Part shown: in pieces, positions 20,234-34,760 of the stretch
Position numbering within the stretch: the first letter of the stretch is position 1
Layout of the letters: every line of letters starts with the position of its first letter
Assembly (NCBI RefSeq): GCF_004378255.1
Contig: NZ_SNQG01000001.1
Coordinates: 496,001-560,000, forward strand
DNA: 64,000 nucleotides
Reading direction: 5' to 3'
From: Mucilaginibacter phyllosphaerae
GTDB taxonomy: Bacteria > Bacteroidota > Bacteroidia > Sphingobacteriales > Sphingobacteriaceae
Program-made: the position numbers and the translations under genes
The notes under the pieces: generated by a model
Told to the model about the DNA's origin: nothing
Databases searched by the model: none
Seen by the model: only the letters and a program-made list of their open reading frames with translations

Positions 20234-20989
20234 TTACCTGCCTGCCGCCCAAAAAATAGCATTGCTAAATAAACGGGTATAAGCCGGATTATTAAAAAGG
20301 CCGGGCGAATGCCCCATAAAAATATAAATGTTTCGCGCTTTGTAATGTTGGTTGGTCCAGATCACCGGGTGATCGCCCATTTTTATTTTGCCCTGCGGCT
20401 GGTAGCCAGATTCGTTTACACTGGCTAAAACATGCACATTTGGCCGCGGGCTTTTATTGTAGGTGTACCATTCCTCCTGCTTAATAAGGAATGATAAAGG
20501 TACGCACTTCATCACCGGGTGGTGCTTATCCTCTACTTGTACCGTGCCTTTGGCAAATGTGGCTATATAATCCTTCCACCTGATGCCGCCCATAAACTCC
20601 GAGAACCAGTTCCACATCGGGTAGCCGTCAAACTCGCCCAGTAGCGTTGCGTGGTGAAAGCCTATCCAGCCGCCCCGGCCCTCATTAATATATTTCTCAA
20701 ACGCGTTTACAGCCTTTTCTTTCCAGGCATAAGGCGCATAATCCAGCTGAATAAACAGCTGGTATTTATTTAGAAATGCATCGTCAATATTATCTGTATT
20801 TTGAATATAATCTACAGTAAAACCCTTTTGCCCGGCCAGTTTATTTAACCATGCACAGGCACGTTTGGAATATGCTATATGATGACCGCCATTTTCATAA
20901 AGGACCAGTACCCTAAACGGCGGCAACTTTTTTGCAAAAGCGGCAAAGCCAATGCCAAGCATCAATAAAAGCAGTATCACTTTCTTCAT
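20234..20989 (-). CDS. ThuA-like (glutamine amidotransferase-fold) secreted protein
   Basis: The 251-residue protein has a signal peptide (MKKVILLLLMLGIGFAAFA) and a ThuA domain: FRVLVLYENGGHH, GWIGFHHA, FMGGIRWKDY, HPVMKCVP, DHPVIWTNQHYKARNIYIFMGHS. ThuA proteins share the class I glutamine amidotransferase fold but have no proven activity in most cases; they often accompany sugar oxidoreductases. It lies 8 bp after the kinase gene and so is at the end of the kinase/SEDS-PBP transcript. Any link to cell-wall control is unproven and may be only positional. Confidence 0.82.
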   Translation of the reverse strand: MKKVILLLLMLGIGFAAFAKKLPPFRVLVLYENGGHHIAYSKRACAWLNKLAGQKGFTVDYIQNTDNIDDAFLNKYQLFIQLDYAPYAWKEKAVNAFEKYINEGRGGWIGFHHATLLGEFDGYPMWNWFSEFMGGIRWKDYIATFAKGTVQVEDKHHPVMKCVPLSFLIKQEEWYTYNKSPRPNVHVLASVNESGYQPQGKIKMGDHPVIWTNQHYKARNIYIFMGHSPGLFNNPAYTRLFSNAIFWAAGR

Positions 20990-20997
20990 CCTAAAAG

Positions 20998-22404
20998 TTA
21001 AAATATCCCCAGGAATTTTTTGCGCTTTTTCCTGATGGGTTTAGCTTTAATGATGGCCGAATCTACCGTGGCCTTTATGGCCCGGTTGGCAGCCGCCTTT
21101 TTTGCGGCCATAATTTTCCTGTTAACCCGCATTACGCTATCATAATTATAGGGCCTGGCCATAAATGGCGGCTTAAAATAGTCGGCCTGGTTTACATAAA
21201 CTGCCTTTACATTACCCGGCTGTTTAACATTAAACCAGGCATACAAAAACAGGCCGGCAAATATTATCCCGGCCAATACAATCACAGTAAGTGCCTTTTT
21301 GGGGATAAACACCAGTTTGTTATTGCGCTCATAAATACCTTTAGCTTCGTTAAAATTAGCGCCCGTTTCGTTAGCGTAATGCTTTAAGGCTAATAATTGC
21401 TGCTCTTTTTTAAGCTCGTCCTGCTGGTACTGTTTTACCATTCCTGCAAGGCGCTCGTTCTCTGCCTGTATGGCTGCGGTGCTTACCCTGCCATCTGCAG
21501 ACAGGCTGCCGTTGATAATAGCCTCGTGCAGTTCCATGCCGCTTTTAAAACGGGCATCGGGTGTTTTTTGCAGGCATTTATCAATTACATCCAGCAGCCA
21601 TTGCGGTACCTGCAGTTCTTGTGTTTGCTTCAGCGTTGTCCAGCTATCCGGTAAACTTTTCTTTCTTGCTTCGCGCAGATCCGGAACGGGCGCTTCCATG
21701 TGGGCCAGCATAATGGCATTGCGGCCGGTTTCGCCATTGCCTGTAAGCGGGAAGGGTACCTGCCCGGTTAGTAACTCGTAAAGAATGATGCCATAGCTGT
21801 ACACATCTGTTTGCAGATACATGGCGCCATCGTGCTGCTCGGGCGCCATAAATTCTATAGCCCCGGCATGGCGAATGCTGCTTCTGCGCTCTTCTTCGCT
21901 CATGATGGCCAGGCCAAAATCCAGCAGTACATAATTACCCGTGTGGATATTATATTTTACATTATTACTTTTAATATCCCCATGTTTTACACCCACCTTA
22001 TGGCAATGCGCCAGGGCGCTTGCCAGCTGATCGGCCACGCGGATGGCCTCTTTCAGCATAAAGATCTTTTCGTGCGGGGGCTGCAATAGTTCGCAAAGAT
22101 CAGGGCCTTCTATATACTCCATCTCAATGTAGGGAAGCGAACCGCTCTCGGTAATGCCCGAGCTTAAGATCTTTACCACATTGGGGTTAGGCTCTTCGTT
22201 TACCTTTTGCAGTTTGGCAACTTCGTTACTAAAGTTGCGGAAGTTTTTATCATCCTCGCTTTCGGAATGGATAGGTGTTGGCAGCAGCTTTACAGCCGTA
22301 AGCACAGGCCCCATACGGCGGCCCTTATATACCGACCCCTGCCCGCCGGTGCGCAGCGCACCCAAATTTTCCAAACCCTCCGTTATCGTAAAAACCTTAC
22401 TCAT
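20998..22404 (-). CDS. Membrane-anchored Ser/Thr protein kinase A
   Basis: The 468-residue protein has an N-terminal Hanks-type kinase domain (about residues 10-285). It shows a Gly-rich loop GGQGSVYKG, the ATP Lys in TAVKLLP near residue 37, catalytic HGDIKSNN near 140, DFG in LLDFGLAIM near 161 and EFMAPEQ. HGD instead of HRD makes it a non-RD kinase. A juxtamembrane coiled segment follows (about 310-360), then one transmembrane helix (VIVLAGIIFAGLFLYAWF, about 372-389) and a basic C-terminal tail of about 75 residues. It has no PASTA repeats, so it cannot bind muropeptides that way. The first 8 bp overlap the FHA gene. It is paralogous to the kinase at 29946-31316; their kinase domains are nearly identical over long stretches. 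Likely partner: the PP2C phosphatase and FHA proteins of this cluster. Confidence 0.92.
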   Translation of the reverse strand: MSKVFTITEGLENLGALRTGGQGSVYKGRRMGPVLTAVKLLPTPIHSESEDDKNFRNFSNEVAKLQKVNEEPNPNVVKILSSGITESGSLPYIEMEYIEGPDLCELLQPPHEKIFMLKEAIRVADQLASALAHCHKVGVKHGDIKSNNVKYNIHTGNYVLLDFGLAIMSEEERRSSIRHAGAIEFMAPEQHDGAMYLQTDVYSYGIILYELLTGQVPFPLTGNGETGRNAIMLAHMEAPVPDLREARKKSLPDSWTTLKQTQELQVPQWLLDVIDKCLQKTPDARFKSGMELHEAIINGSLSADGRVSTAAIQAENERLAGMVKQYQQDELKKEQQLLALKHYANETGANFNEAKGIYERNNKLVFIPKKALTVIVLAGIIFAGLFLYAWFNVKQPGNVKAVYVNQADYFKPPFMARPYNYDSVMRVNRKIMAAKKAAANRAIKATVDSAIIKAKPIRKKRKKFLGIF

Positions 22405-23188
22405 TTGCTGCCGGTTGATAACTAAATTCTAATACTGCCGATTCGCCCAGGATGATCTGGTCGCCTTCCTGTAACTGGTGGCCTATATGGGTTGATGTCA
22501 ATTTAATGATCTCCTCGCTTTTTTCCGACCGGATCTTGATCTTATTACGTGGGGGTACACCCCCATCATCTGCATACAGCATAAACCTGCCTGCATCATT
22601 ATTCCACTCGATACGGGCATGCTGGCGGCTTACATACTTATTGCTTTCATTTTGGCTATCTGTAGGGAATGCAATATGGTTGGTACGGAAAAAACCATCA
22701 TCGCCCTGTGCCTTTTTATCTCTCCCGATATGGATCTTTTCGCTTTCTGATGACAGCTTATATTCTTTTTGATCGGTTTCGCCGCTTAAAGCCCTGATGT
22801 AGGCCGTGGCGCTTTGCTTAATAAAGTTCTTGCTGGTTTTAATAAAAAAGGCCGCATCCAGCTTGTTTGACCGGATCGCTTCCGGCGGAAATTCTTCGTT
22901 CAATACCACCTCCATCTGCCAGCTTTCGGGCAGATTTACGGCGTAGTCGTCGGCAATGCGCTGCACTTCATCCTTAAAAACCCCGGGTTCTTCCGTATAA
23001 ACAGCAGCCTCGTACATCGGGATATCAGATGCAGGGGCGTTTAAATAAAGATTAAGGCCTTTGATATTCCCCCCTTCGCCCCCCTCGGCTTTTTGCAGTT
23101 CCTGTTTGATGAATTGCAGCAATTCATAGCGGATGCTTTTTACATCTGCGGGCCGATCTTCCTTATCGCTTTTAAATAAATTGAACAT
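22397..23188 (-). CDS. FHA-domain phosphothreonine-binding protein
   Basis: The 263-residue cytoplasmic protein has an N-terminal alpha/beta region (about residues 1-130; LFKSDKEDRPADVKSIRYELLQFI...). This occupies the place that DUF3662 has in actinobacterial FhaA; similarity is only suggestive. The C-terminal FHA domain (about 150-258) has the key phosphopeptide-binding residues: IHIGRD near 155 and YVSRQHARIEW near 187. FHA domains bind phosphothreonine, so this protein probably reads phosphorylation by the kinase whose gene it overlaps by 8 bp. It lies 65 bp after the SEDS-PBP gene. Confidence 0.88.
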   Translation of the reverse strand: MFNLFKSDKEDRPADVKSIRYELLQFIKQELQKAEGGEGGNIKGLNLYLNAPASDIPMYEAAVYTEEPGVFKDEVQRIADDYAVNLPESWQMEVVLNEEFPPEAIRSNKLDAAFFIKTSKNFIKQSATAYIRALSGETDQKEYKLSSESEKIHIGRDKKAQGDDGFFRTNHIAFPTDSQNESNKYVSRQHARIEWNNDAGRFMLYADDGGVPPRNKIKIRSEKSEEIIKLTSTHIGHQLQEGDQIILGESAVLEFSYQPAANE

Positions 23189-23253
23189 TATATTATACTA
23201 TGCTATTATTATTCAACCAAAAAAAACATTTTATATTATGCTAAACCCAAGCC

Positions 23254-26200
23254 TTATTCGCTTGTTTGCCCGTTAATACTTTTAATATATCCCTTCTCTT
23301 TCAGGAATGGTATAACATGGCTGGCAGCAAGCCTTACCGCATCTGATGAGCCCTTGGTAGACTCTATCCGCACACAAACCACCATATTTCCGCCCCCATT
23401 CGCCTTTGGCGCAAAAAAAACGTACCAGCCATCATTGATTTGCTGTTTTTTCCAGATCCGCTCGGGCGTGCCGGTTTTACCGGCCACTGCAAGGCCCAGT
23501 ATCCACTCTTTTGGAGCACTTTGTTCTATCATATATTGCCGAAGCAGATCTGCATACTTCGGATCATTGGTTAACCTGATACCCGGTTTAACACTGGTTA
23601 CCGAATCGGCCAGTTTTAGCACGTACCTGTTTGGCAAAATAGTGCCGCCATTGGCAATACCTGCCGCCATACGTGCCACAGATGCCGGTGTGGCTATCAG
23701 TTCGCCCTGCCCCCATGCCATACCCGAGATTCCCTTGGCACGGGTTTTACGGATATTATCGGGGTTATATTTTGGCTTGGTATTAAATTCTGTTTTGCGC
23801 CAAAACTCCCGCCATTTTTCTTCCTGTTTGGCGTTCTCTTTATCGCGCCCATAATAATAACCGCCTACGCCATGCAAAAACATACCTGTTTTTAAGTAAA
23901 CGGTTGCCATATCTTCCTGCAAATGCTGCTGATTGGCCAGTTTAATAAAATACACGTTGTTTGATTTGGCCACGGCACGCTCCAGTGTGATCAGCCCGGT
24001 TTCATCAGGCTCCAGCCCTTTGGTGCGAATGCGTTCGTAACTTGCCACGTTGTACTTTACATCTGCAGCCGCCAAACCCAATTTATTAAACGATGCGATA
24101 GAAGTAGCCAGCTTTGCCGTTGAACCCGGCTGTGTAGCCAGCGTAAAACCCAGATCCTGCGTGGTCATCCATTGCGAAAGCTGGTTTTGCTCGTAGTAGC
24201 TCATGGTTAGTTTTTCCCAATCGTGCACCGGGGGCAGCGGATAAACGGCCGAGGTGAGCACATCCCCTGTATTGGATTCCATTACTACTACCGATACGCG
24301 GTTATCCAGCAACGAGGTATCTGCGGCCATAGAATTTTGGATGCTGGTTTGCAGGCCGGCATCCATCGTTAGCTTTACATCGCGGTTACGGTTCTTAAAA
24401 GCTTCTACCTCTTTACTGTTAATACCGGCGATAAGCAAGGGGGCTATAGCGCTGTAATCTTTTTTTACCACCGTCATTTCCTTTACGCCACGTGCCAGAA
24501 AGCGGTCTTCCTGGTAGCGGTTTGCGGTAACGTTGTACTTTTCTGTAGGCATTTTAAAGCCGCGCAGTTCGGCCGCGTGTTCGTATTCGGCAAAGTAACC
24601 GTTGGGGCTGCCGTTAAAAACACCGGTATTGGCGTCGCCCGTCCAAAAAAACATTTGCGCATCAAAGGGGTAATACCTGTCCAGCCGCTTATGCATAGCC
24701 GAATCAATATTATAGTCCTGCGCGCCGGCAATTACCAGTTTGCGATGTTGTTTTTTGACGATATCGGGCTTGCTGGTTGCCAGTACCACGCCATCGCGAT
24801 CGTAGATATTACCGGCTTCTAAACGGTTCATTAATATAGCAATACGCGGGTTATAGCTAAACATACGTGCGCCGCTTTTGTCGGCAACTAAAGCGGGTTG
24901 CACCACCCATTTTTTGTTATTGAACAGGTAGCGCGATACGTTTACCGTTAGCAGCGTAACACCTACAAAAGCCGCTATCAAAGCAGGCACCAGGTTTTTA
25001 TCCTGCTGGCGCGACAAGTAGTTCATTTGCACCGGTGTACCCCTTACCAACGATGCCGACAGCAGGAACCCCGAGGCCAGCAAATTAGCGACCAAAGACG
25101 ACCCGCCATAACTTTGAAACGGCAGTGAAACGCCCGAAAGCGGCAATGCCCCGGTAGAGCCGCCTGCGATAAGCATAAATTGTACAAATGTTGATACCCC
25201 GATGCCGGCGCAGAGATAAAACAGAAATGGTGTGCCTGTTCGCCGGCCTATCAGGATAGAACGGTGCAGGTAAACCAGGAAAAGCAGAAAGATACACACG
25301 ATCCCCGTCCACCCGAATTCTTCGCCCATGGAGGGCAGGATCATATCCGTATGCGCCTCGGGGATGGTTTTGGCAAAGCCCTCGCCTACGCCCTGGCCGC
25401 TTACGCCGCCACTGCTCATGGCCCAAAGGCCGTTGGCTACCTGGTCGCCGCCATATACTTCATTGTTCCAGGCATCCTGCCAGATGGCTTTACGGTCTAC
25501 CAGCCGTTGTACCGGGCCGGGGAACAGCTTACCTAAATACGGGATCTGATCAATAGTTAAAAAAGCCGCCATAATGATGAGTACCATCATAGCCGACTCG
25601 CTGAGTTGCCTGCGCTTGAACAGCATAAAAAGAGCCGCAATAGCCGCAGTTATCAATGCCGATAGCCAAACGTTTTTGACCACCCATGATACGATGACGT
25701 AGAGCACCACCGCCCCTGCCATAAACATAAAATCGCCGCGGCAGAAGGAGAACAGCACGATAAACGTGAAACATATTACCATAGCCGGGCCCAGATCGCC
25801 CAGCAGCAGAAATAGCAGCAAGGTTACTAAAATGGCTATCAAAGCAAAAGAGAAGAACGACCAGCGTTTACTCCAGCTGGTATATTCGCTGATGAGTTTT
25901 TCGTTTGCGGCAAAAAAGCCCGCAAGGAAAAGGATCACCAAGTATTTTACAATTTCGCTGGGTTGAAAGCCGAAAAGGTTCACTTTAACACCGCTGCCTT
26001 CGGGGCCGGTGCCAAACTTAATGGTTAGGGCCAGCAGGGTTGCCGCCAATACCACCCAGGGCCAGCCGTTGGCCGCGTTGCGGTTATTTTTAAATACCAG
26101 CATGCGGTAGATCCACGAATCGGGCGTAAAGCGGCGCAGCTTTAATTGCAGCATTACCAGCATAGCTACCATACCAATACCCAGGTAAACCAGCATATCT

Positions 26201-27360
26201 TTAGCTAAAAATCTGTCGCGCAATGGGTCCTGCAAGCTCAACAGCGTTAAAAAAGACAGCCCCGCCAATATCATTACCACCGGTAAGATCAACTGATCTG
26301 ACGTGCTGAACTTCCACGACAGCAGAATGTGCACCAACAGGAACACGCCGATGAAGCAGCCGGATATCATAAGGAACCATTTGTTAAATTCTGCCGGGGT
26401 GCGGATGATGAGTGATCTCTCTTTTTTCAGGATGTTAAAATCCCGGGTAGAAAACAACCTGATGGTATGCGGAGCCTGGCTAAAATTTAAACTTACATCA
26501 TCATCCAGATTTTGTACCCCCTGCGATGCACCAAACTGATAACCGGGCTGCAGCGGCAATAATTTAAAGGCCTTCCCTTCGGGCAGGTTCTTAAATTCGG
26601 CAATACCCTGCTGATTGGTGCGGGCATAGGCCGTAAGTGTTTGCAGGCGTTTATGCCCGGCACTATCCGGCAGGTAAACTTTTTTGAAACCGTTGCCGCT
26701 TTCTGTAACGGGTTTCAGTTCGTCCAGTTCCTCGTCTGTAAATATACTATCCTGCGGCAGTATCATATCCATACGTACCAGCACCCCGGCAACCGGTTCC
26801 TTTTTATTGGTAACCACGCTACTGATGCTGTATTCGCCCATGGCCAGGTCGGTTATATTAGGCACACTAACCGGGCTGCTGCGCTCGCTTACAAACAAGG
26901 TGGAATCCTGGCCGGCATAGCCCAATAATGAGCGCGAGGCACTTACGCGCGCCTTAAAAGATTCGCCGCCTTTTTCAAAGGCTTCATCAGCAGCAATAAA
27001 ATATTTGCGTTTATTCAGCTCGCCTATGTTATCAATTTTTTCGCCGGTGCCTATGTTTCCGGCAACGGTTTGGGTTATCAGGTTGATATCGCGCTTATCC
27101 TCAAAATAGTAGCCTTTGGTGAGCAGGGTTTTCAATTGCCCGGCAGGGTCCTTATCATTCAGGTTGATCATGGTGCCATCCTGCAGGCGCTTATCCACAT
27201 CGGCAAAACGGATCTGCAGCACCGAGTACAGCCTGAAAAATAAAAACACGAACAGAACGCTGATCAGCAGCAGGAAAACACGTTCCTTCCAGCGGGTTTC
27301 AACAGGTATCTTATCTGGCTCCATTTGGCTTGGCGGGGGTTGATATTCTGGTATCTGCAT
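23254..27360 (-). CDS. Fused SEDS (RodA/FtsW) glycosyltransferase and class B penicillin-binding transpeptidase
   Basis: The 1368-residue membrane protein unites two enzymes normally encoded separately. A cytoplasmic tail and one TM (about residues 28-46) lead to an extracytoplasmic region (about 47-325) with a Cna-B-like beta-sandwich. A SEDS domain of about ten TMs follows (about 330-795); it keeps the signature GQGVGEGFAKTIPEAHTDMI, in which Asp672 corresponds to the catalytic Asp of RodA. One more TM (about 806-828) leads to a PBP part starting at AGNIYDRDGVVLATS. The transpeptidase motifs are complete: SxxK at Ser1080-Lys1083 (PGSTAKLA), SxN at Ser1133-Asn1135, KTG at 1295-1297. It should polymerise lipid II and crosslink the strands. 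Its start overlaps the PP2C gene by 50 bp. Context is the kinase/FHA/PP2C cluster. Domain assignments are firm; borders are approximate. Confidence 0.93.
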   Translation of the reverse strand: MQIPEYQPPPSQMEPDKIPVETRWKERVFLLLISVLFVFLFFRLYSVLQIRFADVDKRLQDGTMINLNDKDPAGQLKTLLTKGYYFEDKRDINLITQTVAGNIGTGEKIDNIGELNKRKYFIAADEAFEKGGESFKARVSASRSLLGYAGQDSTLFVSERSSPVSVPNITDLAMGEYSISSVVTNKKEPVAGVLVRMDMILPQDSIFTDEELDELKPVTESGNGFKKVYLPDSAGHKRLQTLTAYARTNQQGIAEFKNLPEGKAFKLLPLQPGYQFGASQGVQNLDDDVSLNFSQAPHTIRLFSTRDFNILKKERSLIIRTPAEFNKWFLMISGCFIGVFLLVHILLSWKFSTSDQLILPVVMILAGLSFLTLLSLQDPLRDRFLAKDMLVYLGIGMVAMLVMLQLKLRRFTPDSWIYRMLVFKNNRNAANGWPWVVLAATLLALTIKFGTGPEGSGVKVNLFGFQPSEIVKYLVILFLAGFFAANEKLISEYTSWSKRWSFFSFALIAILVTLLLFLLLGDLGPAMVICFTFIVLFSFCRGDFMFMAGAVVLYVIVSWVVKNVWLSALITAAIAALFMLFKRRQLSESAMMVLIIMAAFLTIDQIPYLGKLFPGPVQRLVDRKAIWQDAWNNEVYGGDQVANGLWAMSSGGVSGQGVGEGFAKTIPEAHTDMILPSMGEEFGWTGIVCIFLLFLVYLHRSILIGRRTGTPFLFYLCAGIGVSTFVQFMLIAGGSTGALPLSGVSLPFQSYGGSSLVANLLASGFLLSASLVRGTPVQMNYLSRQQDKNLVPALIAAFVGVTLLTVNVSRYLFNNKKWVVQPALVADKSGARMFSYNPRIAILMNRLEAGNIYDRDGVVLATSKPDIVKKQHRKLVIAGAQDYNIDSAMHKRLDRYYPFDAQMFFWTGDANTGVFNGSPNGYFAEYEHAAELRGFKMPTEKYNVTANRYQEDRFLARGVKEMTVVKKDYSAIAPLLIAGINSKEVEAFKNRNRDVKLTMDAGLQTSIQNSMAADTSLLDNRVSVVVMESNTGDVLTSAVYPLPPVHDWEKLTMSYYEQNQLSQWMTTQDLGFTLATQPGSTAKLATSIASFNKLGLAAADVKYNVASYERIRTKGLEPDETGLITLERAVAKSNNVYFIKLANQQHLQEDMATVYLKTGMFLHGVGGYYYGRDKENAKQEEKWREFWRKTEFNTKPKYNPDNIRKTRAKGISGMAWGQGELIATPASVARMAAGIANGGTILPNRYVLKLADSVTSVKPGIRLTNDPKYADLLRQYMIEQSAPKEWILGLAVAGKTGTPERIWKKQQINDGWYVFFAPKANGGGNMVVCVRIESTKGSSDAVRLAASHVIPFLKEKGYIKSINGQTSE

Positions 27361-28771
27361 GCAGGCGGGTAGCCAAGAAATCGGCTGTTACCGGCTTGCC
27401 TGCAGGCAGGTTATATGCCCTTTGGATAGGCAGCTTACAGTTGATAAATTGCGTATTTTTGAGCAACAAACTGTTATTTTGCAGATCGATAGCCACATCA
27501 AAATCTTTAAACGTTATATTATTTAGCCCCACTACCTTGCTATCCGTACCCGGTGATAATGCCGGGCCATGATAGGCGGTATCGCGCTGTAAAACAAGGC
27601 TGCCCTTTATGCGGATATACAACGTATCCTGATCGATATGCAGGGTATCTGTTAATATTACAGGGCTTTTAAAGGAGGTATCTGATAAAACAAGCGTATC
27701 GCCCTTAAAGGCATCAATGGCATCCTGTAATTTTACCTCATCTGCATTACGCAGTTTTTGGGCTGATGATGAGGCTGATGCAACCGGCTTCCCTCCCGAT
27801 CGCTTTGACAGATACAGCCAGATGCTGGTGGCCAAAAACACCAGGCATAATATGCCCAATATCGGGGTTAGTAAGTTACTTTTTTGTTGAGCCATCGGTG
27901 GTTCATCTTGTGGTGTGCGTTCGGTTTTGGTTTGCGGGCGCACAGGCGTTATCCCGTCGTCGTGTTCATCATTCCTTTTTACCGGGGCTGATGCCGGCAT
28001 GGTAGCCTGTGGTTTATGCTGCTGCTTATCGTTTTTAACCAATACCACGGTTACATTATCCCGGCCGCCGTTATCATTAGCGGTGTTGATCAGTTGGATG
28101 GCCTTTTCGGGCAAGGGAATATCCTGGGTAATAATATCCAGAATGCCGCTTTTATCTACCATATCTGTTAAGCCATCGCTGCAAAGCAGCAGCATATCAC
28201 CCGGTAAAAATGGCGACTGCCCCGTTTCTATAAAGCTTTCGTCGGTATCTATCTGGCTGGTAAAGCCCAGCGCCTTATTGATCTCGTTACGTTTAGGGTG
28301 GTTCATGGCGGCGGTTTCGGTCAGCCTGCCGCTATCCTCTAAAAAGCCCACAAACGAATGGTCTTTAGAAATCTTTACCAGTGTACTATCGCGCAGCAGA
28401 TACAAACGGGTATCGCCCACATGGGCATAAAAAAACTGGTTATTCTCTATATCCACCAAAGCCATGGTAGCTACACAGGCCATGCTTTCCAGCTCTTTAT
28501 CGCTTTGCTTTTTAGCAGAGATCTGTTCACTGGCCAGTTTAAAGGCATCTATCATCCCGGGGATGATCTCGCCCTGCAGGCCGCTTAAACGATCAATAAA
28601 AACATCTTTGGCTATGGCCGCTGCCACTTCGCCGCCGTTATAGCCGCCCACCCCATCAATTACGGCGGCAAGTACCATGCGGTTACCCATCACCTTTTGG
28701 GTAATAAAGGTATCCTCGTTATTGGTACGTACCTTGCCTGTATCGGTTAATCCAACATAGTTTTCAGCCAT
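27311..28771 (-). CDS. PP2C-family Ser/Thr phosphatase with membrane anchor and extracytoplasmic domain
   Basis: The start at 28771 (MAENYVGLTDTGKVRTNNEDTF) is preferred over one nine codons upstream because PP2C domains begin this way. The 486-residue protein has a PP2C domain (about residues 1-240) with metal-binding motifs RTNNEDT, AVIDGVGGYNGGE, HVGDTRLYLL, CSDGLTDM and NGGRDNVTVVLV. A Pro/Thr/Gln-rich linker follows, then one TM (ILGILCLVFLATSIWLYL, about 304-321) and an extracytoplasmic tail of about 165 residues with repeated beta-strand patterns (ITFKDFDVAIDLQNNSLLLKN...) resembling a small beta-helix. It would remove phosphates placed by the two kinases. The 3' end overlaps the SEDS-PBP start by 50 bp, so translation is probably coupled. 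The arrangement parallels PstP of mycobacteria. Confidence 0.9.
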   Translation of the reverse strand: MAENYVGLTDTGKVRTNNEDTFITQKVMGNRMVLAAVIDGVGGYNGGEVAAAIAKDVFIDRLSGLQGEIIPGMIDAFKLASEQISAKKQSDKELESMACVATMALVDIENNQFFYAHVGDTRLYLLRDSTLVKISKDHSFVGFLEDSGRLTETAAMNHPKRNEINKALGFTSQIDTDESFIETGQSPFLPGDMLLLCSDGLTDMVDKSGILDIITQDIPLPEKAIQLINTANDNGGRDNVTVVLVKNDKQQHKPQATMPASAPVKRNDEHDDGITPVRPQTKTERTPQDEPPMAQQKSNLLTPILGILCLVFLATSIWLYLSKRSGGKPVASASSSAQKLRNADEVKLQDAIDAFKGDTLVLSDTSFKSPVILTDTLHIDQDTLYIRIKGSLVLQRDTAYHGPALSPGTDSKVVGLNNITFKDFDVAIDLQNNSLLLKNTQFINCKLPIQRAYNLPAGKPVTADFLATRLHADTRISTPAKPNGAR

Positions 28772-28867
28772 TGCGTTTACCGGATTTTTTAATATCAATA
28801 AAATGAGTTATCAGCAGGCAAAAACCAATCCCTAATAACCCGATAGATAAGATCTGCGACATACCCT

Positions 28868-29812
28868 TTATGCTTTAAACAGGTTTAAACCAATAATACC
28901 ATTCAGCAACATGCGCGAGTTTATGGGCAGCTCTACCCATTTTGGTGCGTTAATGTCGCTGCGCTCTATCACCACCTCATTCAGTGTGGTTATTTCGCCG
29001 AATGATGCCAGGTAAAACTTACCATCGGCCTTGTTATATTTGATCTGTAAATGCGGTGCGTTCACCCAATCGCTTGGGATGGTGAAGATGTTTGACCCCT
29101 CGCGCGTTTCTTCGCTGCCCGATATAATGATCTCTTCATCCTTCATCAGATACTCCACCTTTTTACCCGCAAATTGCTGATCGGGGATGATGGTTTCCAG
29201 CCTGGCTATCTGGCTTTGCACTTTGGCAGCCTTTTCTTCCTGCGGCTCCAGTTCCTCTTCGTAAGGGATCTCAAAATACCCTTCGCTATAGTAAGTAAAG
29301 CCTTTTAAAGCTTCCTGGCTTACATCAAAGGTTTGGGCGATACCTGTTTGGCGGGGGATGAACGTTACCCGTAAGTTTTGCTCCTTTTGATTATTATCGG
29401 GCAGTAGCTTACCTATAAAACCTTTATCGCCGCGGGCATAATCCGGATGCGATACCAAACGGAACACCCATTTAGAACCCGAGGGCTTTACGGTTTTGCC
29501 TGCTGCGCGATACTCTTTCAGTATCTCGTAAAACTTGGTAACCGTTTCCTGCACTATCAGCCCGAAGATGCCTTGTTTATCGGCCACAAACTCCCGGTAA
29601 TCTTCGGCATTAAAGCTGATGATGAACTCGTGGTAAAATACCACCCGGTCGGCAAAGGACAGGTCTTTGATAGAACCGCGAAACTTATCTACAATGTAAC
29701 TGTAAACCGTATCGGGCGTTAAGGCTTTGGCCTTAGCCTTTTCGGTGCTTTCGTTGGTTAAAAACCAATCCTGTATGCCTATGCGCTGCCAAAAATTTGG
29801 TGTAGAAGCCAT
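28868..29812 (-). CDS. Uncharacterised cytoplasmic protein with degenerate FHA-like C-terminus
   Basis: The 314-residue protein has no signal peptide or TM. Residues 1-190 are mixed alpha/beta (FADRVVFYHEFIISFNAEDYREFV..., WVFRLVSHPDYARGDKGFIGKLLP) and unknown to me. Residues about 225-314 resemble an FHA beta-sandwich (EIIISGS...NIFTIPSDWVNAPHLQIKYN...FYLASFGEITTLNEVVI...MLLNGIIGLNLF). In it the His of the SxxH motif is kept (NAPH), but the Ser is Asn and the Gly-Arg pair is missing, so phosphothreonine binding is doubtful. It lies between kinase B and the PP2C gene (69 bp before PP2C). By position it would be the second FHA-type member of the cluster. The FHA-like assignment is my reading of the pattern and not a confirmed match. 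Confidence 0.6.
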   Translation of the reverse strand: MASTPNFWQRIGIQDWFLTNESTEKAKAKALTPDTVYSYIVDKFRGSIKDLSFADRVVFYHEFIISFNAEDYREFVADKQGIFGLIVQETVTKFYEILKEYRAAGKTVKPSGSKWVFRLVSHPDYARGDKGFIGKLLPDNNQKEQNLRVTFIPRQTGIAQTFDVSQEALKGFTYYSEGYFEIPYEEELEPQEEKAAKVQSQIARLETIIPDQQFAGKKVEYLMKDEEIIISGSEETREGSNIFTIPSDWVNAPHLQIKYNKADGKFYLASFGEITTLNEVVIERSDINAPKWVELPINSRMLLNGIIGLNLFKA

Positions 29813-29945
29813 TTATTTTTAATTCTAAACTCTAAATACGAAATTCTAATCTGTAAATTCTAAATACGAAACTCTAAAACTAAACTCTAAATACGAATCC
29901 CTAAGCTTTAATACTGATCTCTAAACTCTAAACACTGATCTCTAA
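29813..29945. repeat. Degenerate tandem repeat between kinase B and the FHA-like gene
   Basis: The 133-bp spacer consists almost entirely of degenerate copies of a 14-21-nt unit built on CTCTAAATACGAAA / ATTCTAAATACGAA (for example around 29830, 29857, 29882 and 29924). It contains no gene. Similar wording appears at 34320-34345 (ATGCGAAACGCTAAATTCTAAA), so it is probably a dispersed, slippage-prone intergenic repeat of this genome. Confidence 0.75.
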
Positions 29946-31316
29946 CTACTGTGTGGTAGTTATGGTGTCGGGCTCTGTTTTTAGGGTATCGGGGGCCGGT
30001 TTGGGTATCACCACCGGCTTTTTAACAACTGTGTCTTTTGTTACCGGGGTGCTATCTGCCGCCGCGTCATCAGCCGGATATTTGGCGCCAAAATTAACGC
30101 CGGTATCTGCCTTGTTGCTATTGCTGTTTTGCAACGAATCCTGATTTACAGGTTTTGTCGGCGATTCTTTTTTTAACAATGTGGAGTAAACCGAAAAGCC
30201 CATAAACAGCACCAGCAGCGTCATCACCGTATAATAATAAGGTTTTGACAGCGATACGCGCGACCCATCCTCCGCCGGCTGTTCTGCAAATATTTGCTTT
30301 GGCGGCAGGCTGCTTTGCTGGTATTGCATCAGTTGGTTGTGCAGGCGTTCGTTCTCGCTGCGCAGGGCGGCATTGCTTAAACCACCGGCAATATCAAAAC
30401 TATCCGAGGCGGTAATACTGCCCCTTACAATGGCATCATGCAGCTGCGTGCCGTTGCTAAACCTATCCTTAGGTGCCTTTTGCAGGCATTTTTCTATCAG
30501 CTTTAACACCCATTGCGGTACCTGCATCTCGTGGCCCTGTTTCTCGGCATCCCAGGCGGCGGGTAAAGCCTTGCGGCGGGCATTCAGCAAATCGGGCACG
30601 GGGGTTTCTATATGGGCCAGCATCACCGCGTTACGGCCTGCATCGCCGCCGCCATGCAGCGGGAACGGCACCTCGCCGGTTAACAGTTCATACAAAATGA
30701 TACCGTAGCTGTAAATATCGGTCTCCATCAATATCTTACCCTCGTGCTGCTCGGGCGCCATAAATTCTATAGCCCCGGCATGGCGGATGCTGGTACGGCG
30801 CTGCTCTTCGCTCATGATGGCCAGCCCAAAATCAAGCAGTACATAATTGCCGGTGTGGATATTATATTTTACGTTATTGCTTTTCACATCGCCATGCTTT
30901 ACGCCAACCTTATGGCAGTGTGCCAGGGCGCTTGCCAGTTGGTCGGCCACGCGGATAACCTCTTTCAGCATAAAGATCTTTTCGTAAGGCGGTTTCAGCA
31001 GTTCGCAAAGGTCGGGTCCCTCGATGTATTCCATCTCGATATAAGGGAACGAGCCGCTATCGGTAATACCCGAGCTTAAGATCTTCACCACGTTAGGATT
31101 GGGCTGCTCGTTCACCTTTTGAAGCTTGGTTACCTCATTCCTGAAATTGCGGAAATTCCTGTCATCCTCGCTTTCGGTATGTATGGGGGTTGGCAGCAGT
31201 TTTATTGCGGTATATACCGGCCCCATACGGCGGCCTTTATATACCGAGCCCTGGCCGCCGGTGCTCATGGCGCCTAAGTTTTGAAGTCCCTCTGTTATTG
31301 TAAATACTTTACTCAT
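29946..31316 (-). CDS. Membrane-anchored Ser/Thr protein kinase B, paralogue of kinase A
   Basis: The 456-residue protein has a Hanks-type kinase domain (about residues 10-285) almost collinear with kinase A: GGQGSVYKG, YTAIKLLP, HGDVKSNNVKYN, LLDFGLAIM, EFMAPEQHEG. It is also a non-RD kinase (HGD). A short coiled region precedes one TM helix (VMTLLVLFMGFSVYSTLL, about 361-378). The extracytoplasmic tail is rich in Pro, Thr, Asp and Lys (VTKDTVVKKPVVIPKPAPDTL) and differs entirely from that of kinase A, so the paralogues probably sense different things. There are no PASTA repeats. It appears to be the first gene of the cluster, 133 bp ahead of the FHA-like gene. Gene duplication followed by tail replacement is the simplest explanation. 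Confidence 0.92.
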   Translation of the reverse strand: MSKVFTITEGLQNLGAMSTGGQGSVYKGRRMGPVYTAIKLLPTPIHTESEDDRNFRNFRNEVTKLQKVNEQPNPNVVKILSSGITDSGSFPYIEMEYIEGPDLCELLKPPYEKIFMLKEVIRVADQLASALAHCHKVGVKHGDVKSNNVKYNIHTGNYVLLDFGLAIMSEEQRRTSIRHAGAIEFMAPEQHEGKILMETDIYSYGIILYELLTGEVPFPLHGGGDAGRNAVMLAHIETPVPDLLNARRKALPAAWDAEKQGHEMQVPQWVLKLIEKCLQKAPKDRFSNGTQLHDAIVRGSITASDSFDIAGGLSNAALRSENERLHNQLMQYQQSSLPPKQIFAEQPAEDGSRVSLSKPYYYTVMTLLVLFMGFSVYSTLLKKESPTKPVNQDSLQNSNSNKADTGVNFGAKYPADDAAADSTPVTKDTVVKKPVVIPKPAPDTLKTEPDTITTTQ

Positions 31317-34388: not shown

Positions 34389-34760
34389 AGAGACGCGATA
34401 CTTCGCGTCTCCCACATGACGCGATACTTTGCGTCTCTCACATGCAAATCCCGGTATATCAAAAAAAAGACGCGAAGTATCGCGTCTCTACGGTTTAAAT
34501 CCGAAATCGTTCATCCAAAATCATATTGTAAGTACCTTTTATTTTATCGTAGAGACGCGAAGTATCGCGTCTCCACATGCAAATCCCGGTATATCAAAAA
34601 AAGACGCGAAGTATCGCGTCTCTACGGTTTTAATCCGAAATCGTGCATCCGAAATCATATTGTAAGTACCTTTTATTTTTACGTAGGGACGCAATGCTTC
34701 GCGTTTCTAAATGCAAATCCCGGTTTATTTAAAAAAGACGCGAAGTATCGCGTCTCTACA
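34389..34760. repeat. Tandem array of palindromic GACGCGAAGTATCGCGTC repeats (about 135-bp period)
   Basis: Seven copies of a roughly 20-22-nt near-palindrome (AGACGCGAAGTATCGCGTCT and its inverse) lie at about 34390-34411, 34418-34437, 34468-34487, 34552-34573, 34602-34621, 34686-34707 (diverged) and 34736-34757. They sit in units of about 135 bp that also share ATGCAAATCCCGGTATATC and TCATATTGTAAGTACC. Every strand can fold into stable hairpins. The frames across it encode only repeat peptides, so no gene is called in 34310-34775. The array separates the convergent HD-YitT and cyclase genes and may end both transcripts. Confidence 0.9.

Follow-up and report, generated by a model that had tools for sequence, protein, structure and literature searches.

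The window analysed here is a 64,000-nucleotide stretch of the Mucilaginibacter phyllosphaerae genome (contig NZ_SNQG01000001.1, positions 496,001 to 560,000). It contains a 10.3-kb block on the minus strand in which an open reading frame (ORF) check and Pfam searches identify six genes in the order K2, FHL, PP2C, SEDS-PBP, FHA2, and K1 (PBP, penicillin-binding protein; Table 1). A six-gene, one-strand arrangement had been proposed in a first-pass annotation of the sequence, and all six ORFs are indeed found on this strand where that annotation had placed them. The core of the block, comprising the FhaA-type adaptors and the SEDS protein, probably shares ancestry with the actinobacterial fhaA-fhaB-pstP-rodA-pbpA-pknA-pknB locus, because the SEDS part groups with the RodA of that operon, the adaptors appear to be of the FhaA type, and the gene order is colinear. 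Judging from the sequences, this seems to be an old core whose kinases were replaced. The earlier choice between an ancient origin and independent assembly of the locus therefore gives way to a mixed answer, in which homology holds for the core and inheritance of the whole does not, since the kinases are not PknA or PknB.

Table 1. Genes and intergenic feature of the cassette, with positions in the window
Feature	Description	Position	Strand	Basis
K2	Hanks-type Ser/Thr kinase, 456 aa	29946..31316	-	Pfam Pkinase, motifs
K2-FHL gap	133 bp; degenerate A+T-rich 7/14/21/28-bp tandem repeats, CTAAACTCTAAATAC-like (29821-29945)	29813..29945		
FHL	Adaptor, apparently FhaA-type with a divergent FhaA_N-like N-terminus, 314 aa	28868..29812	-	Profile match and predicted fold
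PP2C	PstP/Stp1-type phosphatase, up to 495 aa	27311..28798	-	Pfam, profile
SEDS-PBP	Fused synthase, 1368-aa ORF	23254..27360; conserved start 27324	-	Pfam, homologue alignment
FHA2	Second adaptor, 263 aa	22397..23188	-	Pfam FHA
K1	Hanks-type Ser/Thr kinase, 468 aa	20998..22404	-	Pfam Pkinase

The fused synthase is the central element of the cassette. Within its single ORF, FTSW_RODA_SPOVE (E-value 8.3e-46) and Transpeptidase (4.9e-22) domains were found, the SEDS glycosyltransferase occupying residues 358-770 and the transpeptidase residues 1023-1340 in the numbering of the 1368-aa ORF. In an alignment with invariant columns, the catalytic motifs are intact in both the SEDS part (PEAHTD, including its Asp) and the PBP part (SxxK as STAK, SNN, and KTG). 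The same genome also encodes RodA-PBP2, as well as FtsW with its own nearby class B PBP, which makes the fusion the third SEDS protein. Because the canonical RodA-PBP2 and FtsW are separate and the SEDS and PBP motifs are intact, the fused protein looks like an extra, active-looking wall synthase. Its first 350 residues are well modelled in the predicted structure (pLDDT 85), with a transmembrane segment (TM) at 24-50, a periplasmic helical domain at 55-161, a sandwich at 175-298, and a second TM at 322-350. The sandwich is predicted to be periplasmic and CnaB/transthyretin-like, with a best Z of about 8 for what is a common fold. The acidobacterial fused protein is shorter in this periplasmic N-terminal region.

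The alignment of homologues also defines the gene boundaries. In homologues, the alignment begins at the methionine that corresponds to the ATG at 27324 and not at the ORF end at 27360; consequently, the overlap between the PP2C and SEDS-PBP genes is about 14 bp, which is likewise seen in two relatives (L028 and L029). For PP2C itself, the ATG at 28771 is the probable start. Of the overlaps of 8 and 50 bp reported previously, the 8-bp overlap between the FHA2 and kinase genes was recovered, while the larger one is reduced accordingly. Transcription of the whole block as one unit is only possible, because the repeat-filled gap separates K2 from FHL. Promoter and terminator scans of the block gave results close to shuffle expectation and were not used.

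The ancestry of the core is most clearly visible in the SEDS tree. All 26 fused proteins fall in a single clade (100/100). A 100/100 branch sets this clade, the RodA of the actinobacterial operon, and an FHA-linked SEDS from Monoglobus apart from all FtsW and RodA proteins tested. Taking out two short rows and a long-branch row left the support of this branch at 100/100. Constraining the fusion to group with all canonical RodA, with Bacteroidota RodA, or with Bacteroidota FtsW was rejected (p-AU, from the approximately unbiased test, 0.020, 0.009, and 0.0005, respectively). A grouping of the fusion with Actinobacteria that excludes Monoglobus reached only 91/69 and was not recovered after row removal; the trees, which are unrooted, do not fix how the fusion, Actinobacteria, and Monoglobus branch among themselves. 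The PBP tree also gives one clade of fused proteins, with an unresolved neighbour and without placement beside PbpA. Since the cassette is a single clade in each of the SEDS, PBP, and PP2C trees, with broadly matching inner groups, these three genes have travelled together.

The second line of evidence comes from the adaptors. FHA2 has a C-terminal FHA domain (E-value 1.5e-5) with an intact phosphothreonine motif (GR and SRQH). FHL matched no Pfam family; however, its predicted structure (model pLDDT 76.8) shows an FHA fold at approximately residues 200-314, which superposes on the FHA domain of MDC1 (Z 14.4, 1.9 Å over 101 residues) and on Mycobacterium tuberculosis FhaA (Z 11.8, 1.8 Å over 89 residues). 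Matches to the FHA domain filled the result list of this search, which therefore speaks mainly for the C-terminal part. By profile, the C-terminus of FHL matches the FHA domain of FhaA at 1.6e-9. FHL retains its phosphothreonine-binding residues in Acidobacteriota and Rhodothermia (GR, SREH) and keeps part of them in Spirosomaceae (AR, SNPH), while in the window and its near relatives the binding Arg and Ser are lost (SG, NxPH).

The N-terminal regions of the adaptors were compared pairwise, each E-value referring to a single pair. The Bacteroidota FHL matches acidobacterial FhaA (3.9e-11), the Bacteroidota FHA2 matches acidobacterial FHA2 (2.6e-11), and acidobacterial FHA2 matches actinobacterial FhaA_N (2.3e-10); the match between acidobacterial and actinobacterial FhaA is weaker (3.5e-5). 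In direct profile comparison, the N-termini of window-type FHL and FHA2 did not match actinobacterial FhaA_N, to which they are linked through intermediates only. A direct Pfam match to FhaA_N lies above the cut-off in UBA2364-type relatives and below it in relatives from Rhodothermia and Acidobacteriota, two groups in which FhaA_N-FHA proteins adjoin the fused synthase. FhaA_N is present in 4 of 296 Bacteroidota-phylum genomes, all four of which have the fused synthase (not every copy adjoins it), and in Corynebacterium only among 14 control genomes. Both FHA proteins of the window thus appear to be FhaA-type, partly via intermediate relatives.

The phosphatase and the kinases give a different picture. 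The PP2C domain (E-value 8.5e-13) covers approximately residues 10-260 and is followed by one TM (about 313-331) and a periplasmic tail of about 160 aa, an architecture that fits PstP. Its score against NF033484 is 202.5 bits, below that model's cut-off of 230. In the PP2C tree, whose deep branches are unresolved, the cassette members form one clade that is not placed beside PstP or any other definite neighbour. A beta-helix (PF13229) occurs in the PP2C tail of an acidobacterial relative and is suggested for the window tail, the profile comparison between Bacteroidota tails and the acidobacterial beta-helix tails being not significant (17% probability). Pkinase domains were found in both kinases (E-values 2.5e-35 and 1.1e-35), which keep their catalytic motifs, in K2 GGQGSV, AIK, HGDVKSNN, DFG, and APE. 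The kinase domain of K2 spans residues 18-288 and is followed by one TM (about 363-381) and a short periplasmic tail rich in Pro, Thr, and Asp; in K1, the domain spans 18-287, the single TM lies at about 371-389, and the tail, likewise short and periplasmic, is strongly basic. Pfam finds no PASTA repeats in either protein. Both the absence of these repeats and the difference between the external tails had been noted in the first-pass annotation and hold.

The kinase domains of K1 and K2 are 82% identical. A codon-level comparison gave no sign of very recent copying between them, third-position identity being mostly about 0.5 and reaching 0.69-0.78 in alignment columns 120-200. In several species, both cassette kinases of one genome pair as nearest relatives (K1 and K2 of the window; L030, L130, and L031), and this pairing of kinases with differing tails suggests repeated duplication or gene conversion. 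The cassette kinases as a whole do not form one clade, as the acidobacterial, Spirosomaceae, sphingobacterial, and PknA/PknB groups separate in the tree. Orthology of K1 and K2 with PknA and PknB is not supported, given the lack of PASTA repeats and these separate groups, the deep branches of the kinase tree being weakly resolved. The gene trees proposed as a check on the locus have therefore yielded the SEDS grouping, spoken against a PknA/PknB origin of the kinases, and left the neighbours of PP2C and PBP unresolved.

Linkage of these genes extends well beyond the window. A contig scan identified 347 relatives, of which the best 80 were retained; phyla other than those named here may be represented among the other 267. 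Among the best 80 are members of Acidobacteriota (Bryobacterales, Solibacter, Terriglobia), Roseithermus, Spirosoma, Larkinella, Fibrella, Pedobacter, Mucilaginibacter, Niastella, Ferruginibacter, and others. Of the 81 named loci, which belong to Acidobacteriota and Bacteroidota, 62 have the complete cassette (FhaA-type protein, PP2C, SEDS-PBP, FHA2, and kinase on one strand), and several of the others run into contig ends. The synteny that the first-pass annotation proposed to examine is thus conserved, with the same core order. Its description of the locus as actinobacterial-type in a Bacteroidota genome captures the likeness and is too narrow, as the fused version is common among the acidobacterial matches and also occurs in Rhodothermia, Spirosomaceae, Chitinophagaceae, and Sphingobacteriaceae. 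Searches of the open-access literature yielded no account of the cassette from either Bacteroidota or Acidobacteriota.

Within these phyla, the distribution of the cassette is sporadic and accessory. A relative of the fused synthase is present in 12 of 296 Bacteroidota-phylum genomes, and a clear FHL in 7 of the 296, an eighth and marginal match lying in a RecG-like helicase. The synthase was found in 13 of 396 genomes of the class, with 8 of 9 positive in the window's genus and none of 12 in sampled other genera of its family, and in 3 of 149 genomes of Acidobacteriota (the phylum of Occallatibacter). The window SEDS is 80% identical to that of L116. In Spirosoma oryzicola, the whole cassette is carried on a 137-kb plasmid (L049, NZ_CP089545). 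Pedobacter panaciterrae O48 has two very similar cassettes (L120 and L125) in opposite orientation about 0.1 Mb apart on one contig, and the FHL gene of L125 is apparently split over two ORFs. At the genome scale, the block accounts for every Pkinase gene (exactly two), the single Stp1-type PP2C, and the single FHA domain above the cut-off in the 4.42-Mb genome; because of this, and because the unit is conserved elsewhere, the clustering is not due to chance. Pedobacter sp. PLR likewise has its sole kinase, sole PP2C, and sole FHA inside its cassette.

All groups compared share one core order, with the adaptor first, followed by phosphatase, SEDS, and PBP. The arrangement reads FhaA - PP2C - kinase - SEDS-PBP - FHA2 in Acidobacteriota, FHL - PP2C - kinase - kinase - SEDS-PBP - FHA2 in Spirosomaceae, (kinase) - FHL - PP2C - (kinase) - SEDS-PBP - FHA2 - (kinase, kinase) in Sphingobacteriaceae and Chitinophagaceae, FhaA - (PP2C) - SEDS-PBP - FHA2 in Rhodothermia and UBA2364-type loci, and FhaA - FhaB - PstP - RodA - PbpA - PknA - PknB in Actinobacteria. 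The cassette and the actinobacterial locus have in common an adaptor that appears FhaA-type, a one-TM PP2C, a SEDS protein of the same group, a class B PBP, and kinases in the same block. In contrast to the latter, the cassette has RodA and PBP in one protein with an added periplasmic domain, a second, apparently FhaA-type protein after the PBP, kinases of other lineages without PASTA repeats, and, in the window, an FHL that lost its phosphothreonine-binding residues; no short stand-alone FHA protein corresponding to FhaB was found in the block. The previous statement that the two sets are functionally the same probably reflects homology for the adaptors and SEDS, with a shared gene order, while counterparts of FhaB, PknA, and PknB were not found; the cassette resembles the mycobacterial locus in outline and probably has its core, without being a full member. 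The actinobacterial locus is, moreover, conserved throughout its phylum (PMC6554272), unlike this sporadic cassette. A Clostridia trio in Monoglobus pectinilyticus (L053) also places FHA beside SEDS and a class B PBP, and its SEDS is the Monoglobus protein of the tree described above; it differs in having separate genes and no kinase or PP2C nearby in the L053 record. The canonical RodA-PBP2 of the Rod complex similarly pairs a SEDS glycosyltransferase with a class B transpeptidase, but it is not the nearest SEDS relative (p-AU 0.009-0.020).

Taken together, the cassette can be regarded, with moderate confidence, as a conditional, transferable, and self-contained module for phosphorylation-gated peptidoglycan synthesis, for which we infer the phosphorylation targets, the signal, the direction of control, and the occasion of use. 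In such a module, one polypeptide would both polymerise (SEDS) and cross-link (PBP) the wall, its own periplasmic domain possibly serving in sensing or docking. The two one-TM kinases and the one-TM PP2C would read the state of the envelope through their periplasmic tails and set how far the members of the module themselves are phosphorylated on threonine. The intact FHA2 would bind phosphothreonine, while FHL, without the usual binding residues, may use its FhaA_N-like half to serve as a constitutive scaffold. The synthase would be turned on when the ordinary RodA-PBP2 and FtsW are insufficient, for example under damage, stress, or in a special growth phase. In mycobacteria, pstP, rodA, pbpA, and the kinases are experimentally linked to cell-wall control (PMC6554272), and FhaA has been placed in the elongasome (PMC11898655). 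The role in general growth and division that the first-pass annotation derived from the mycobacterial operon is less likely than a conditional one, because the cassette is sporadic, is plasmid-borne in one Spirosoma, and coexists with an ordinary RodA-PBP2 and FtsW. Several observations weigh against the proposed module: the kinases are not orthologous across the cassette family, so that the signalling step may vary by lineage or have other targets; some Rhodothermia loci have neither kinase nor PP2C adjoining the synthase; and nothing observed links the module to a defined stress. The chances are about even for the broader view that this is a mobile, phosphorylation-switched, one-protein SEDS system, the third next to the Rod and division machines of Acidobacteriota and Bacteroidota, built on an old FhaA/SEDS core that has repeatedly received different kinases and in which one FHA domain is now a phosphate-independent scaffold.

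Other explanations of the same genes have to be weighed. The kinases, PP2C, and FHA proteins could constitute a general Ser/Thr phosphorylation hub, with SEDS-PBP merely one co-located client. They include the only such kinases of the genome, and mycobacterial PknB has many substrates. Nevertheless, the co-location with the synthase is kept over two phyla while the kinases are exchanged, and in Roseithermus (L038 7262-11416) the PP2C is fused directly ahead of RodA-PBP in one 1384-aa protein, which favours the synthase as the main client; a general hub is therefore rather unlikely. Somewhat less probable still is that the same module serves survival of wall-targeting agents, the stress-switched synthase replacing blocked PBPs in the manner of low-affinity class B PBPs. 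The synthase is extra, sporadic, and in one Spirosoma plasmid-borne, and the nearest solved relatives of its transpeptidase part (window 23254-24400) are the low-affinity class B enzymes PBP2a and enterococcal PBP5. This likeness is weak, however (E-values of about 1e-7 to 1e-5), and could stem from the architecture common to class B enzymes; mec-like regulators were not observed beside the synthase, and sequence cannot reveal beta-lactam affinity.

Convergence, in which a kinase/FHA/PP2C set was gathered independently around a Bacteroidota RodA-PBP2 pair, would agree with kinases that are not relatives of PknA and PknB and with PP2C and PBP trees that do not place the cassette beside PstP or PbpA. 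The SEDS grouping and the rejected alternatives given above are difficult to reconcile with it, as are the shared gene order and the FhaA_N-FHA proteins adjoining the fused synthase in Rhodothermia and Acidobacteriota, which make this explanation improbable. An anti-phage or prophage-control module of the KKP type, which likewise combines two kinases with a PP2C, is very improbable. The kinases match the PADLOC PD-T4-6 and MAD6 kinase models, but these models match kinases in general, and the hits were dismissed on that ground. The adjacent PP2C-kinase-kinase triplet, the kinases bearing a cold-shock or FHA domain, and the prophage setting described for KKP (PMC11341870) are missing here; no phage genes were evident among the examined neighbours, and many relatives have one kinase. 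In addition, no genes resembling those of a type VI secretion system (T6SS; PpkA-PppA-Fha pathway) were found among the examined neighbours, the genome not having been searched for T6SS.

Some neighbouring features should also be recorded. A ThuA-family gene (20234-20989) begins 8 bp past K1; as it follows the cassette only in the window and in L029 among the compared loci, it is probably a passenger. Elsewhere in the window, at 34431-34759, a 134-bp unit is present in about 2.4 copies with 90% identity and GACGCGAAGTATCGCGTC-like inverted motifs, and resembles a small repeated element. In Rhodothermia-type loci, the downstream FHA protein (L038 11479-12753; L036 11435-12805) carries an N-terminal HEPN_Swt1 domain beside the wall synthase, a domain usually tied to RNA cleavage or conflict systems.

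Accounts of how FHA proteins couple Ser/Thr kinases to wall synthesis usually centre on Actinobacteria and Firmicutes and on PASTA kinases. That the core also turns up in two more phyla, as a portable cassette whose kinases have been swapped, points to the synthase-FHA-phosphatase unit as old and to the kinase as an exchangeable sensor, and the relation of the core to the mycobacterial growth-control operon suggests that this control circuit extends far past Actinobacteria. With RodA and PBP naturally fused, the ratio of the two is fixed, and a single-chain enzyme becomes available for structural and activity work. In hosts with one or two kinases, such as Mucilaginibacter or Pedobacter, the phosphorylation network would be small enough for complete mapping.

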